Source: Rhizobiales bacterium dw_265
GTDB lineage: Bacteria; Pseudomonadota; Alphaproteobacteria; Micropepsales; Micropepsaceae
Length of the DNA: 64,000 nt
Assembly: GCA_018449595.1 (NCBI GenBank)
Contig: JAAVUU010000002.1
Span: 124,001 to 188,000, forward strand
Direction of reading: 5' to 3'
Shown: positions 30,931 through 50,148 of the stretch, one piece after another
How positions within the stretch are numbered: position 1 is the stretch's first letter
Layout: every line of letters begins with the position of its first letter
Position numbers and translations under genes: made by a program
The notes under the pieces: model-generated
Databases searched by the model: none
The model's input: the letters and a program-made list of their open reading frames with translations, nothing else
Told to the model about the DNA's origin: nothing

Positions 30931-31065
30931 AATTGTCATGGCCCGCCGGAGAGCGGGCCACCCAGTTGGGGACAATCTGGCTGCTGCCGAAAGAAATATC
31001 GCGCCAATGGTGAAAACCGCGCGGTATCATCTGGGTGGCCCGCATTTGCGGGCCATGACAATTGG
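30931..31065. repeat. Palindromic repeat, family B (GTCATGGCCCGC type)
   Basis: The ends AATTGTCATGGCCCGC and GCGGGCCATGACAATT are perfect inverted complements. Each arm holds a GGGCCACCCAG / CTGGGTGGCCCG segment, with about 60 bp of unique sequence between. It fills the gap upstream of pyrB. A closely similar copy is at 45087. Confidence 0.88.
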
Positions 31066-37806: not shown

Positions 37807-37913
37807 CATTGCCATGGTCCCCTTTACGTGGGCCATCCCGGGGCAAGCGTGCGGGTGATCGAAGGTTTGCCCTGTTGCTCTGGATGGCCCGGGCAGGCCG
37901 GGCCATGACATTG
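37807..37913. repeat. Palindromic repeat, family B variant
   Basis: The left end TTGCCATGGTCCCC leads to GGGCCATCCCGG, and the right side runs GGATGGCCCGGGCAGG to CCGGGCCATGACATTGG. The two sides are partial inverted complements. It fills the gap after the GST gene and looks like a degenerate member of the type at 30931 and 45087. Confidence 0.65.
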
Positions 37914-41531: not shown

Positions 41532-42005
41532 ATGGCTAAGAAGAAGGAAGACGGCTTCAAGATCATCGCCGACAACCGCAAGGCGCGTTACGCCTATGCG
41601 ATCGACGAGACGCTGGAGGCCGGGATCATGCTGATGGGCTCGGAGGTCAAGTCGCTGCGCAGCGGCAAGACCACCATTGGCGAGGCCTATGCCCATGCCA
41701 AGGATGGCGAGTTGTGGCTGGTCAACAGCTATATCCCCGAATACCTGCAAGCCAACCGGATGAATCACGAGCCCAAGCGCACGCGCAAGCTGCTGGTTCA
41801 TAAGCGCGAGGCCGCGCGCCTGGCCGCCGCCATCCAGCGCGAGGGCATGACGCTCATTCCGCTGAAGCTCTATTTCAACGCCAAGGGCAAGGCCAAGATC
41901 GAACTGGGCGTCGCCAAGGGCAAGAAACTGCACGACAAGCGCGCCACCGAAAAGGACCGCGACTGGCAGCGCGACAAGGCGCGGCTGATGCGGGCCAAGG
42001 GGTAA
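41532..42005 (+). CDS. smpB: SsrA-binding protein SmpB
   Basis: SmpB binds tmRNA and brings it to stalled ribosomes for trans-translation. The 157-residue product has the beta-barrel core with [19 protein letters not shown] and NSYIPEY, and a basic C-terminal tail ([19 protein letters not shown]) that mimics mRNA in the decoding channel. Its ATG follows the dapA stop with no gap. No tmRNA gene was recognised in the window. Confidence 0.97.
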
Positions 42006-42020
42006 GGCACGCCTTGCCAT

Positions 42021-42074
42021 GCTTGTCATCCCCGGCGAGCAATGCGCAGCATTGCGAGGGAAGGGGACCCAGAC
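42021..42074. repeat. Palindromic repeat family A, left arm of the GIY-YIG element
   Basis: The arm starts CTTGTCATCCCCGGCGAGC, includes the palindrome AATGCGCAGCATT and ends GGGAAGGGGACCCAG. Its inverted partner is at 42375-42429, and a GIY-YIG reading frame lies between. Confidence 0.82.
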
Positions 42075-42371
42075 TTGCACCGCGAACACCGCTATTTCGT
42101 CTATATGCTCGCCAGTCGGCGCAATGGCACCTTGTATATCGGCGTACCAATGACTTGAGCCGCCGCGTGGGTGAACATAAAGACAAGATCATTCCGGGCT
42201 TTACGCGCAATTATGGGGTGGACATTCTGGTCTGGCATGAAATGCATGAAAGCATTGATGCCGCCATTGCCCGCGAAAAACAGATCAAAGGCTGGAATCG
42301 CGCCTGGAAAAATCCGCTTGATCGAGAAAGACAATTCCGGCTGGAATGATCTGGCACCGGGCCTGATTTAG
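42075..42371 (+). pseudogene. GIY-YIG nuclease-domain gene, broken by two compensating frameshifts
   Basis: Pieces of one GIY-YIG (UvrC-N/YhbQ-like) domain appear in two frames. Frame 1 from TTG 42075 reads HREHRYFVYMLASRRNG then TLYIG (the GIY-YIG strands). About one base is missing near 42144, after which frame 2 reads TNDLSRRVGEHKDKI and GWNRAWK. One extra A in the A-run at 42308-42312 then returns to frame 1, ending IEKDNSGWNDLAPGLI at TAG 42371. In frame 1 an early TGA follows the first shift. With both corrected it would be about 98 residues, the usual size for this single-domain type. Either a real pseudogene or two sequencing errors would explain it. Confidence 0.8.
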
Positions 42372-42374
42372 GCA

Positions 42375-42429
42375 CCTGGGTTCCCTTCCCCCCACGCCGC
42401 GACGCGGCGCTCGGCCGGGAATGACATTG
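42375..42429. repeat. Palindromic repeat family A, right arm of the GIY-YIG element
   Basis: It runs CTGGGTTCCCTTCCCC, then a CGCCGCGACGCGGCG palindrome, then CGGCCGGGAATGACAT. This is the inverted counterpart of the arm at 42021 and closely matches the right half of the repeat at 50008. Confidence 0.82.
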
Positions 42430-42439
42430 AGAGGCGAAA

Positions 42440-42820
42440 ATGCTCGACCATATCGGTATCGGCGTCACGGATTTCGGACGCGCCAGGCAGTTCTACATCC
42501 ATGCCCTGGCGCCGCTGGGCATCGAGGTGGTGATGGAGGTCACCGCCGAGCAGACCGGCGGCGAACCTGCCTGCGGCCTGGGCGAGGGCGGCAAGCCCTA
42601 TTTCTGGATCGGGGTCGGCGCGGTGGCCCGCGTCCATGTCGCATTCACCGCCAGAACCCGCGCCGATGTGGACTCGTTCTACAAATCCGCCTTGGCGGCG
42701 GGCGGCCGCGACAATGGTCCGCCGGGGCTTCGGCCGCACTATCACGCCAACTTTTATGGTGCCTTTGTGCTGGACCCCGACGGCCACAATATCGAGGCCG
42801 TGTGCCACACGCCGGAATGA
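42440..42820 (+). CDS. VOC family (glyoxalase/dioxygenase-fold) protein
   Basis: The 126-residue product is a single vicinal-oxygen-chelate domain pair. It starts MLDHIGIGVTDFGRARQFY and ends in the typical FVLDPDGHNIEAVCH. His3 (DHIG) and the Glu in NIEAV are standard metal-ligand positions. Specific activity cannot be assigned; related proteins are often annotated as glyoxalase/bleomycin-resistance proteins. Its stop abuts the stop of the convergent uracil-DNA glycosylase gene with no bases between. Confidence 0.9.
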   Translation: MLDHIGIGVTDFGRARQFYIHALAPLGIEVVMEVTAEQTGGEPACGLGEGGKPYFWIGVGAVARVHVAFTARTRADVDSFYKSALAAGGRDNGPPGLRPHYHANFYGAFVLDPDGHNIEAVCHTPE

Positions 42821-45086: not shown

Positions 45087-45222
45087 TTTGTCATGGCCCG
45101 CCGGAGTGCGGGCCACCCAGGTGACGGATACGTGGTGATGCCAGCGTGGCTGAGACGCTGCGAAAACTCTGACGGCGGAGCGTGAGCCCCCTGGGTGGCC
45201 CGCATTTGCGGGCCATGACAGG
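45087..45222. repeat. Palindromic repeat, family B
   Basis: TTTGTCATGGCCCGCCGGAG and the right end CATTTGCGGGCCATGACAGG are inverted, with GCGGGCCACCCAGG / CCTGGGTGGCCCGC inside and about 60 bp between. The arms closely match those at 30931-31065. It lies between rpoZ and rsh. Confidence 0.88.
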
Positions 45223-50007: not shown

Positions 50008-50148
50008 CTTGTCATCCCCGGCGAGCGGCGCATCGTCGGATGCGGCGCGAGGGAAGGGGACCCAGGCTGCTGCTACCTGTCTGGTGGTGAAAGCCTGGGT
50101 TCCCTTCCCCTCGCATTGCTCGCGCAATGCTCGGCCGGGAATGACAGG
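50008..50148. repeat. Palindromic repeat, family A (paired arms, no gene inside)
   Basis: The left arm CTTGTCATCCCCGGCGAGC...GGGAAGGGGACCCAGGC faces the right arm GCCTGGGTTCCCTTCCCC...CGGCCGGGAATGACAGG with only about 25 bp between. The arms match those at 42021 and 42375, which there enclose a GIY-YIG gene. It lies between pdxJ and acpS. Confidence 0.88.

Follow-up and report, generated by a model that had tools for sequence, protein, structure and literature searches.

The DNA examined here is a stretch of 64,000 nucleotides, referred to as the window, from an alphaproteobacterial genome of 4.2 Mb in 21 contigs. It contains a small unit in which two repeat arms in inverted orientation enclose a sole coding segment, which matches the GIY-YIG nucleases (Table 1). 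The unit sits between smpB (41532-42005) and a VOC-type gene (42440-42820), and an 'empty' pair of arms of the same family is found elsewhere in the window, next to genes that look like pdxJ and acpS. We take these four neighbours to be what their names say on the basis of recognition alone. The left arm carries the outer tag TGTC, a lower stem TCCCC/GGGGA, an apical stem GCAATGC/GCATTGC that is specific to this copy, and an inner tail ACCCAG that points toward the gene; it folds into a lower stem of 5 pairs and an apical stem of 7 pairs, separated by an internal loop. The two arms of the unit are not near-identical, as their apical stems differ. Because of these different tips, the unit (locus L006) reaches a generic inverted-arm score of only 13, under the threshold of 16 used below, and it was recognised through the conserved base of its arms and not through this score. 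A repeat finder returned no inverted pair at the window unit.

Table 1. Positions of the GIY-YIG unit and of the REP features within the window
Feature	Position	Strand	Sequence or remark
REP dimer, second family	30935..31059		GTCATGGCCCG...CGGGCCACCCA
Single REP, second family	37881..37909	-	
Left arm (core)	42024..42072	+	TGTCATCCCC...GGGACCCAG
GIY-YIG single-domain nuclease gene	42075..42371 (approx.)	+	PF01541 match 42146-42310
Right arm (core), inverted relative to left arm	42376..42426	-	TGTCATTCCC...GGGAACCCAG; outer end ATGACA
REP dimer, second family	45090..45219		
'Empty' REP dimer (REPIN-like), window arm family	50010..50146		arms 50010-50065 (+) and 50095-50146 (-); 29-base spacer

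A first-pass annotation of the window had claimed inverted arms at 42021 and 42375 enclosing one GIY-YIG segment, and an 'empty' form of these arms at 50008-50148 with about 25 bp between them. Both claims held, the latter with the limits and the spacer given in Table 1. The claim of a single-domain GIY-YIG nuclease held with a correction. Frameshifts are present near 42146 and near 42310, with both ends of the gene (its start assumed to be the TTG codon at 42075) sharing a frame that differs from that of the middle part, 42146-42310. It is therefore likely that this copy is dead and represents a pseudogene, unless the frameshifts are assembly errors. The gene meets the profile criterion of the GIY-YIG superfamily: the window copy scores 35.4 bits against PF01541 (cut-off 22.6), and a relative with an open frame scores 72.1 bits. 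Three open-frame relatives (L001, L002 and L003) are present in the source genome, each within its own inverted arms, together with a truncated copy (L007) that has one arm of the window type. In the protein tree described below, the window protein clusters with proteins from other species whose genes have arms of this type.

The 15-base inner core of the arms, GGGAAGGGRACCCAG, occurs four times in the window compared to 0.36 expected copies, and none of 100 shuffles reached this number. Up to two mismatches were permitted in this count; all four matches are exact. Genome-wide, 37 copies of the core were found with at most one mismatch, compared to one for the reversed pattern. Among these, 24 form 12 inward pairs 43-45 bases apart, two belong to the window unit (318 bases apart, as one long pair) and 11 are solitary, so that 'empty' dimers outnumber gene-bearing pairs of this family by 12 to 1 in the source genome. 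The dimer spacer measures 28-30 bases and is partly conserved, based on the 11 of 20 fetched REP places that were recognised as dimers by pattern. The genome also contains 158 copies of a second REP family (GTCATGGCCCG...CGGGCCAYCCA), five of them inside the window, and none of its reversed pattern. Facing pairs are also numerous in this family, judged from part of its copies, and its arm type also encloses the GIY-YIG units L001 and L002. By eye, over the first 100 of the 158 places, its dimers show few discrete spacings and mostly consist of two unlike arms; L001 and L002 have two like arms each and differ in this respect from most second-family dimers. The motif TCGAAGG was counted 22 times in the window, with nine expected, and carries no weight in the argument.

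Pairing within the arms was assessed in 34 copies of the window family from the source genome. All share the same base (GTCATYCCCGGC ... GGGAAGGGRACCCAG), and they carry 30 different eight-base stem sequences at the tip. Pairing over these eight positions amounts to 93%, compared to a mean of 71% and a maximum of 78% when the 3' sides were dealt among the copies in 1000 deals. Three or four types of Watson-Crick pairs are represented at seven of these positions. The folding energy of single arms was modestly better than that of shuffled sequences (z -0.3 to -2.2 for four arms), which is not decisive. The hairpin pairing is shown, and it is supported by covariation rather than by folding energy. 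The covarying tips point to recognition or regeneration of a folded strand, although this is inferred from sequence alone. In the same arms, the base following GTCAT covaries with the last base of the inner AAGGGR (C-G in 20, T-A in 12 and other combinations in two arms), lengthening the paired part toward the foot of the arm.

The association of arms with GIY-YIG genes was examined beyond the source genome. GIY-YIG matches were obtained in 39 of 41 alphaproteobacterial genomes (25 of the same genus and 16 of the same class). When the left flank was compared to the right flank, 500 bases each, inverted arms with a score of at least 16 were found at 53 of 103 non-UvrC loci in those genomes, compared to 0 of 31 uvrC-like loci and 7 of 384 combinations of left and right flanks from different genomes. 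Two of 105 non-UvrC loci had been excluded for lying too near contig ends. Loci with an open frame of at least 600 residues were regarded as uvrC-like; L056 (615 residues) was kept as non-UvrC by hand, the other gene in its genome being longer, and six UvrC-like rows were not fetched. Not all of the 53 armed loci are REP-like, as some arms were labelled 'other', and about half of the non-UvrC genes, mostly of other subfamilies, lack arms. One genome (G008) has twelve GIY-YIG matches, several of them with different arms.

When named genomes were scanned widely for proteins related to the armed ones, at least 592 relatives were confirmed, of which 80 were kept. According to their record titles, many of which denote metagenome bins, these 80 come from several classes of Proteobacteria, from Bacteroidota, candidate phyla, Chloroflexi, Planctomycetota and others. 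Flanking arms were detected for 60 of 79 of these genes (one locus was too short to be counted), compared to 4 of 418 shifted positions in the same loci. An inward GTC-hairpin-CYA signature was present on both sides at 52 of the 80 loci, on one side at 18 and on neither at 10, whereas the controls had it on both sides in 1 and on one side in 22 of 419 cases. Of 127 unit ends, 125 have C or T immediately before GTC, and the unit length falls between 349 and 442 bp in 52 of 64 measured units. These data show the association across many phyla. The first-pass annotation had named as a refuting outcome that arms and GIY-YIG genes are found together no more often than expected; this did not hold, as their co-occurrence is far above the controls.

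The reverse search used only the arms. With arm sequence and spacing derived from known units, 60 genomes of the same genus were searched for two facing arms 295-325 bases apart, resulting in nine places in seven genomes and none for the reversed pattern. All nine enclose a GIY-YIG gene, five already known and four not; no such facing pair without a GIY-YIG gene turned up. In 398 genomes searched phylum-wide with another common arm, three of five places at 300-330 bases contained the gene, as did two of three at 400-430 bases, one of which is a unit also found at 300-330. The arms-only test thus gives a clean result within the genus and a weaker one phylum-wide. Of eight genomes with the cognate GIY-YIG clade, five contained dimers of the window family, compared to none of eight genomes without this clade. 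This comparison rests on 16 hand-picked genomes of one genus, a small and related sample, and the strict dimer pattern used was missing in three of the eight genomes holding the clade.

A tree of 104 of the 105 non-UvrC GIY-YIG proteins (one shorter than 60 residues was dropped) parts arm-bearing from arm-less subfamilies. For this tree, arms were labelled at a score of at least 14, which leaves one doubtful CGTC label (L004) in an arm-less clade. Arms of the type CCTGAG...CGAAGG occupy nine of ten rows of one well supported clade. CGTC-type arms are nearly confined to one side of the tree, where they account for 46 of 60 rows and 11 rows are labelled 'none'; the split itself is weakly supported. 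Arms are rare in two further clades, in which 13 of 15 and 11 of 13 rows have none. On the tree, 18 label changes are required, compared to 44 for shuffled labels. Arm similarity correlates with protein similarity between different genomes, with r = 0.44 and a maximum of 0.16 in 2000 permutations; 48 of the 53 armed units entered this comparison, those whose arms were unclassified or very short having been left out. When arms were shuffled within genomes, r had a mean of 0.05 and a largest value of 0.31. For the CGTC class alone, r was 0.39 (39 units; largest permutation 0.24). These results show that the arm sequence tracks the protein clade and not the host genome. Seven loci (L053, L068, L077, L091, L062, L063 and L076) form a second, separate GIY-YIG clade with another type of repeat, CACCCTGAGC...GTCGAAGG and CGTCATCCTGAGG...CGAAGGAT. 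It is possible that this clade with its own repeats is a sister system with its own enzyme.

Where DNA similarity between units stops also points to the arms as the ends of the units. A DNA match covering the gene was found for 199 pairs of armed units; in 29 of them similarity extends from arm to arm, with both ends of the similarity no more than 10 bases from the outer ends. In 110 pairs similarity is lost inside the unit on both sides, making them uninformative on the ends, and in four pairs the match runs more than 100 bases beyond an arm, probably reflecting shared sites. Direct repeats beside 64 units were seen in 2, 2 and 3 units at k = 1, 2 and 3 (expected 1.0, 0.9 and 0.7), and none were found at k = 4 to 8. 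Similarity extends far past the arms between L001 and L042 and between L002 and L052; units can thus be kept in place by descent in two species of the genus, which speaks against frequent movement.

Occupied and empty forms of orthologous sites were observed on related plasmids. On a plasmid of Azospirillum lipoferum 4B, a unit lies between sufB and sufC, and it is absent in the four relatives examined (A. ramasamyi, A. oryzae, Azospirillum sp. B510 and A. thermophilum). Because the sequence around the insertion has diverged, its ends are not exact. At this locus (L169, plasmid AZO_p3), a full REP dimer stands on each side of the GIY-YIG gene, splitting the suf operon. In Sphingobium, seven plasmid records are occupied between fnrL and a response-regulator gene, four of them inspected in sequence. 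By eye, no CGTC hairpin or GIY-YIG gene is present at the fnrL site in TomTYG72, TomTYG65 and S. herbicidovorans. TomTYG64 and TomTYG74 (L261 and L262) have a lone hairpin there with an outward tag at both ends; that of TomTYG64, CGTCACCCCGGGTCAAGCCCGGGGTGACG, resembles the outer half of each arm. This hairpin may be a remnant of a deletion between short arm repeats, perhaps an excision scar, or an earlier form. In Shinella, the unit is present in WSC3-e, WSD5-1 and HZN7 and absent in three others examined; here the whole repeat cluster is present or absent together with the gene, and the ends are again not exact.

Other sites were less informative. At the hflX-mazG site of Sinorhizobium, hit lengths had suggested an occupied/empty difference, but the two strains compared, Ak57 and K101, both carry the gene and are not polymorphic there. 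For the Bradyrhizobium unit L240, no joined flanks were found in 240 genomes of the class under a very strict limit, with the genus perhaps unsampled, and for Rhizobium CIAT894 (L172) the flank search gave no other record spanning the site. At the window's own site, smpB is present in 30 of 31 genomes of the same genus, and only the window genome has the unit among the 12 stretches downstream of smpB that were available from these 30 loci. A VOC match begins 5 bases past the last smpB codon in G014. A different REP hairpin follows smpB in G016 (L144) and a different REP dimer in G044 (L146); this intergenic spot seems to be hit repeatedly. A second refuting outcome named by the first-pass annotation, the lack of any occupied/empty polymorphism, thus did not hold, because related plasmids differ, and orthologous presence and absence is shown. 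That annotation had also asked for precise ends, and in this point the support is incomplete: no fully nucleotide-exact empty site was obtained among the orthologous sites compared.

The putative enzyme was characterised in the relatives of the window gene. Residues Y4, Y15, R25, H29, E62 and N81 are invariant in an alignment of 30 relatives picked from the 80 loci, from which three picked rows had been excluded, two of them for a stop codon. The catalytic roles of Tyr, Tyr, Arg, His, Glu and Asn are known from work on I-TevI and UvrC. The relatives meet the catalytic-residue criterion for GIY-YIG enzymes (conserved Tyr, Tyr, Arg and Glu); the window copy itself is frameshifted. A predicted structural model of the enzyme has a pLDDT of 94.5, and its nearest folds, At-HIGLE and Slx1, the UPF0213 protein BH0048 and I-TevI, are tied at Z 6.3-7.1. 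By sequence, the nearest solved relatives are UPF0213 proteins. No NCBIfam family exceeded its cut-off for the four proteins tried. Slx1-type enzymes are generally known as structure-selective nucleases, and the literature describes them as such (PMC9071465). The predicted Slx1-like fold would fit the hairpin evidence, but a shared fold does not show a function.

The arms correspond to a known class of repeats. CGTC-tagged REPs were described by Di Nocera, De Gregorio and Rocco in 2013 as one of two large REP super-families; they are found mainly in alphaproteobacteria and also in other phyla (PMC3733652). The arms around the GIY-YIG genes share with them the outer CGTC or TGTC tag, a palindromic stem starting with AT, an unpaired CCA tail, the arrangement as facing dimers and the mostly alphaproteobacterial distribution that includes other phyla. 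The window arms (TGTCAT...ACCCAG) meet the criteria of tag, stem and CCA tail, and that of mostly facing dimers, with 24 of 37 arms of the family in facing pairs. The criterion of an 8-9 bp stem with a loop of 4-5 bp is not met by the left arm of the window; in contrast to such stems, that of the window family is longer, consists of two parts and ends in a tip specific to each copy. Many other arms at GIY-YIG loci do fit the short form. We therefore regard the window arms as a long-stemmed variant of CGTC-tagged REPs. The survey names A. lipoferum and Neisseria (PMC3733652), and we found GIY-YIG loci with such repeats in A. lipoferum and N. gonorrhoeae (L242). According to that survey, transposase genes do not accompany CGTC repeats, and a dedicated transposase appears to be lacking; the authors suggested that the CGTC transposase died out or that many transposases serve these repeats (PMC3733652). 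In contrast to this account, the CGTC repeats described here enclose GIY-YIG nuclease genes. No link between GIY-YIG proteins and REPs was found in titles and beginnings of abstracts of the open-access literature searched, which did not include preprints and does not establish priority. The main text of a REP survey from 2025 (PMC12306157) does not contain the words 'transposase', 'RAYT' or 'nuclease'.

The first-pass annotation had likened the unit to REP-associated transposases. This is apt for the architecture, a nuclease gene between REPs with dimers elsewhere, and not for membership. REPtrons of the RAYT/TnpA-REP type, with GTAG REPs and REPINs (PMC2817692, PMC3116915, PMC8266576), likewise have a small nuclease gene flanked by REPs and non-autonomous REP dimers elsewhere in the genome. 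However, their HUH/Y1 tyrosine transposase is replaced here by a GIY-YIG protein and the tag is TGTC/CGTC instead of GTAG; with enzyme family and tag both failing, the unit is REPtron-like in layout but not a RAYT. The folded REP is recognised in vitro by the cognate TnpA-REP enzyme (PMC8266576); a comparable recognition by the GIY-YIG protein is proposed by analogy and has no biochemical evidence. With homing endonucleases of the I-TevI type, the GIY-YIG proteins share the catalytic fold (Z 6.3), conserved catalytic residues and, by inference, selfish spread. On the other hand, the 95-residue protein has no separate DNA-binding domain, an intron is absent, and the gene of the unit carries its own palindromic ends. 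Standalone prokaryotic Slx1-like/UPF0213 proteins (PMC1564403; PDB 1zg2, 1ywl) also consist of a single minimal domain, but the arm-less GIY-YIG subfamilies of the same genomes are separate clades, and arms mark mainly two groups of the GIY-YIG tree. TIRYT units, Y1 transposases with long inverted ends (PMC3733652), have inverted ends of their own as well, and such Y1 genes occur in the same genus; the TIRYT-like ends found here are of the GGGGACACT or GGGGTCAGA type and unrelated to the GIY-YIG arms. Three Y1 genes with their own inverted ends (G000:C15:128284-128604, L314; L310; L311) resemble TIRYT units. The short direct target duplication that defines DDE-type MITEs and insertion sequences is not met.

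In the explanation that we favour, with moderate confidence, the unit is mobile, and the hairpin ends are the cognate substrate of its nuclease, which would spread the 'empty' dimers as well. The window feature would be a decayed copy of such a minimal mobile unit, a single-domain GIY-YIG gene between inverted CGTC-type REPs. The nuclease is proposed to recognise the folded form of its own arm type and probably to cut or nick at the pyrimidine-GTC foot of the hairpin, in DNA that is single-stranded during replication or extruded. Host replication or repair would then copy the unit into a new intergenic site without target duplication, and 'empty' dimers with the matching arm type would be served in trans by the same nuclease. 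All of this, from binding and cutting to the copying route, movement and mobilisation in trans, is inferred, as there are no cleavage, binding or movement data. The claim of the first-pass annotation that GIY-YIG proteins help to spread or maintain the repeats is supported in this sense, as a wide association with the action itself inferred. As far as is known, GIY-YIG enzymes are hydrolytic and would not join DNA ends alone. This gap in DNA joining counts against the explanation.

The main rival, which remains possible, is a homing nuclease that lives inside REP dimers while the repeats spread by other means. A free-standing GIY-YIG gene would insert into the dimer spacer, cut empty dimers there and be copied into them by double-strand-break repair with the arms as homology. 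Free-standing GIY-YIG homing nucleases exist. The window unit has the same unlike left and right arms as dimers such as that at 50010-50146, and a nuclease specific to one arm type would likewise match arm to clade. However, by eye, the spacer of the empty dimers is unlike the sequence just inside the arms of the window unit, and the arms of L001 and L002 are alike although most second-family dimers have unlike arms (over part of the copies, also judged by eye). Homing also leaves the mover of the dimers unexplained and does not account for window-family dimers being found only in genomes with the cognate clade. A homing element would be expected to insert at one conserved target whose empty allele its enzyme cuts; the GIY-YIG units lie in many different places, which by itself does not decide for or against homing. 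It is unlikely that the protein is instead a resident nuclease with a host function, which trims or resolves REP cruciforms and hairpins or limits their number, with the arms as its binding sites or as terminators and the unit not mobile. The fold matches to structure-selective Slx1-type nucleases and the units kept in the same place in two species speak for this view, and the Y1 enzyme of REP systems has been termed a domesticated transposase (PMC8266576). Against it stand the patchy presence at orthologous sites, the many paralogues in a genome such as G008, the decayed and truncated copies L006 and L007, and the similarity that stops at the arms.

Movement of the arms by a RAYT-like Y1 transposase, with the GIY-YIG gene as a passenger between REPs, is very unlikely. 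Y1 matches were present in 6 of the 16 genomes compared: a Y1 gene in the source genome and in four of 15 relatives searched, and weaker fragments in one more. However, a motif search found none of six Y1 loci enclosed by an arm pair of these types, three genomes (G013, G016 and G024, of which G016 is 82% complete) have dimers without a Y1 match, and the 2013 survey found no Y1 gene flanked by CGTC repeats (PMC3733652). A RAYT or TIRYT as mover is thus unsupported, the six Y1 loci lying elsewhere and showing no pair of these arms by motif. A chance or compositional origin, in which common intergenic repeats flank a small gene by accident, could draw on the frequency of the repeats (158 arms of one family in the source genome). 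It is contradicted by the shifted controls, the uvrC-like controls and the arms-only searches and is all but excluded; chance association as such is ruled out by the shifted, mismatched-flank and uvrC-like controls.

Returning to the mobile unit, the GIY-YIG enzyme is, by inference, a strong candidate for the mover of CGTC REPs, which have no known mover. A bolder reading can be put forward, which taken as a whole we consider no more likely to be right than wrong. It would see here a new class of prokaryotic mobile elements, whose sole protein is a 95-residue GIY-YIG nuclease and whose ends are CGTC-type hairpins. Such an element would move although it encodes no DDE, HUH, tyrosine or serine recombinase, and would range over Proteobacteria, Bacteroidota and several candidate phyla. 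The enzyme would be the long-missing mover of CGTC REPs, with the CCTGAG...CGAAGG clade as a sister system. It would read the hairpin shape together with a short conserved base, and the stem tips would for this reason drift freely and yet stay paired.

In plasmid records, such genes are mostly labelled 'GIY-YIG nuclease family protein' or 'hypothetical protein', or carry no label. A specific, conserved and testable enzyme candidate makes the movement of CGTC REPs an experimental question. If the proposal is true, GIY-YIG nucleases would join the enzymes that sustain REP populations, and a role would be assigned to a large set of small genes, with at least 592 relatives confirmed. It would also provide a second, independent system in which to study the persistence of populations of tiny sequences in bacterial chromosomes.
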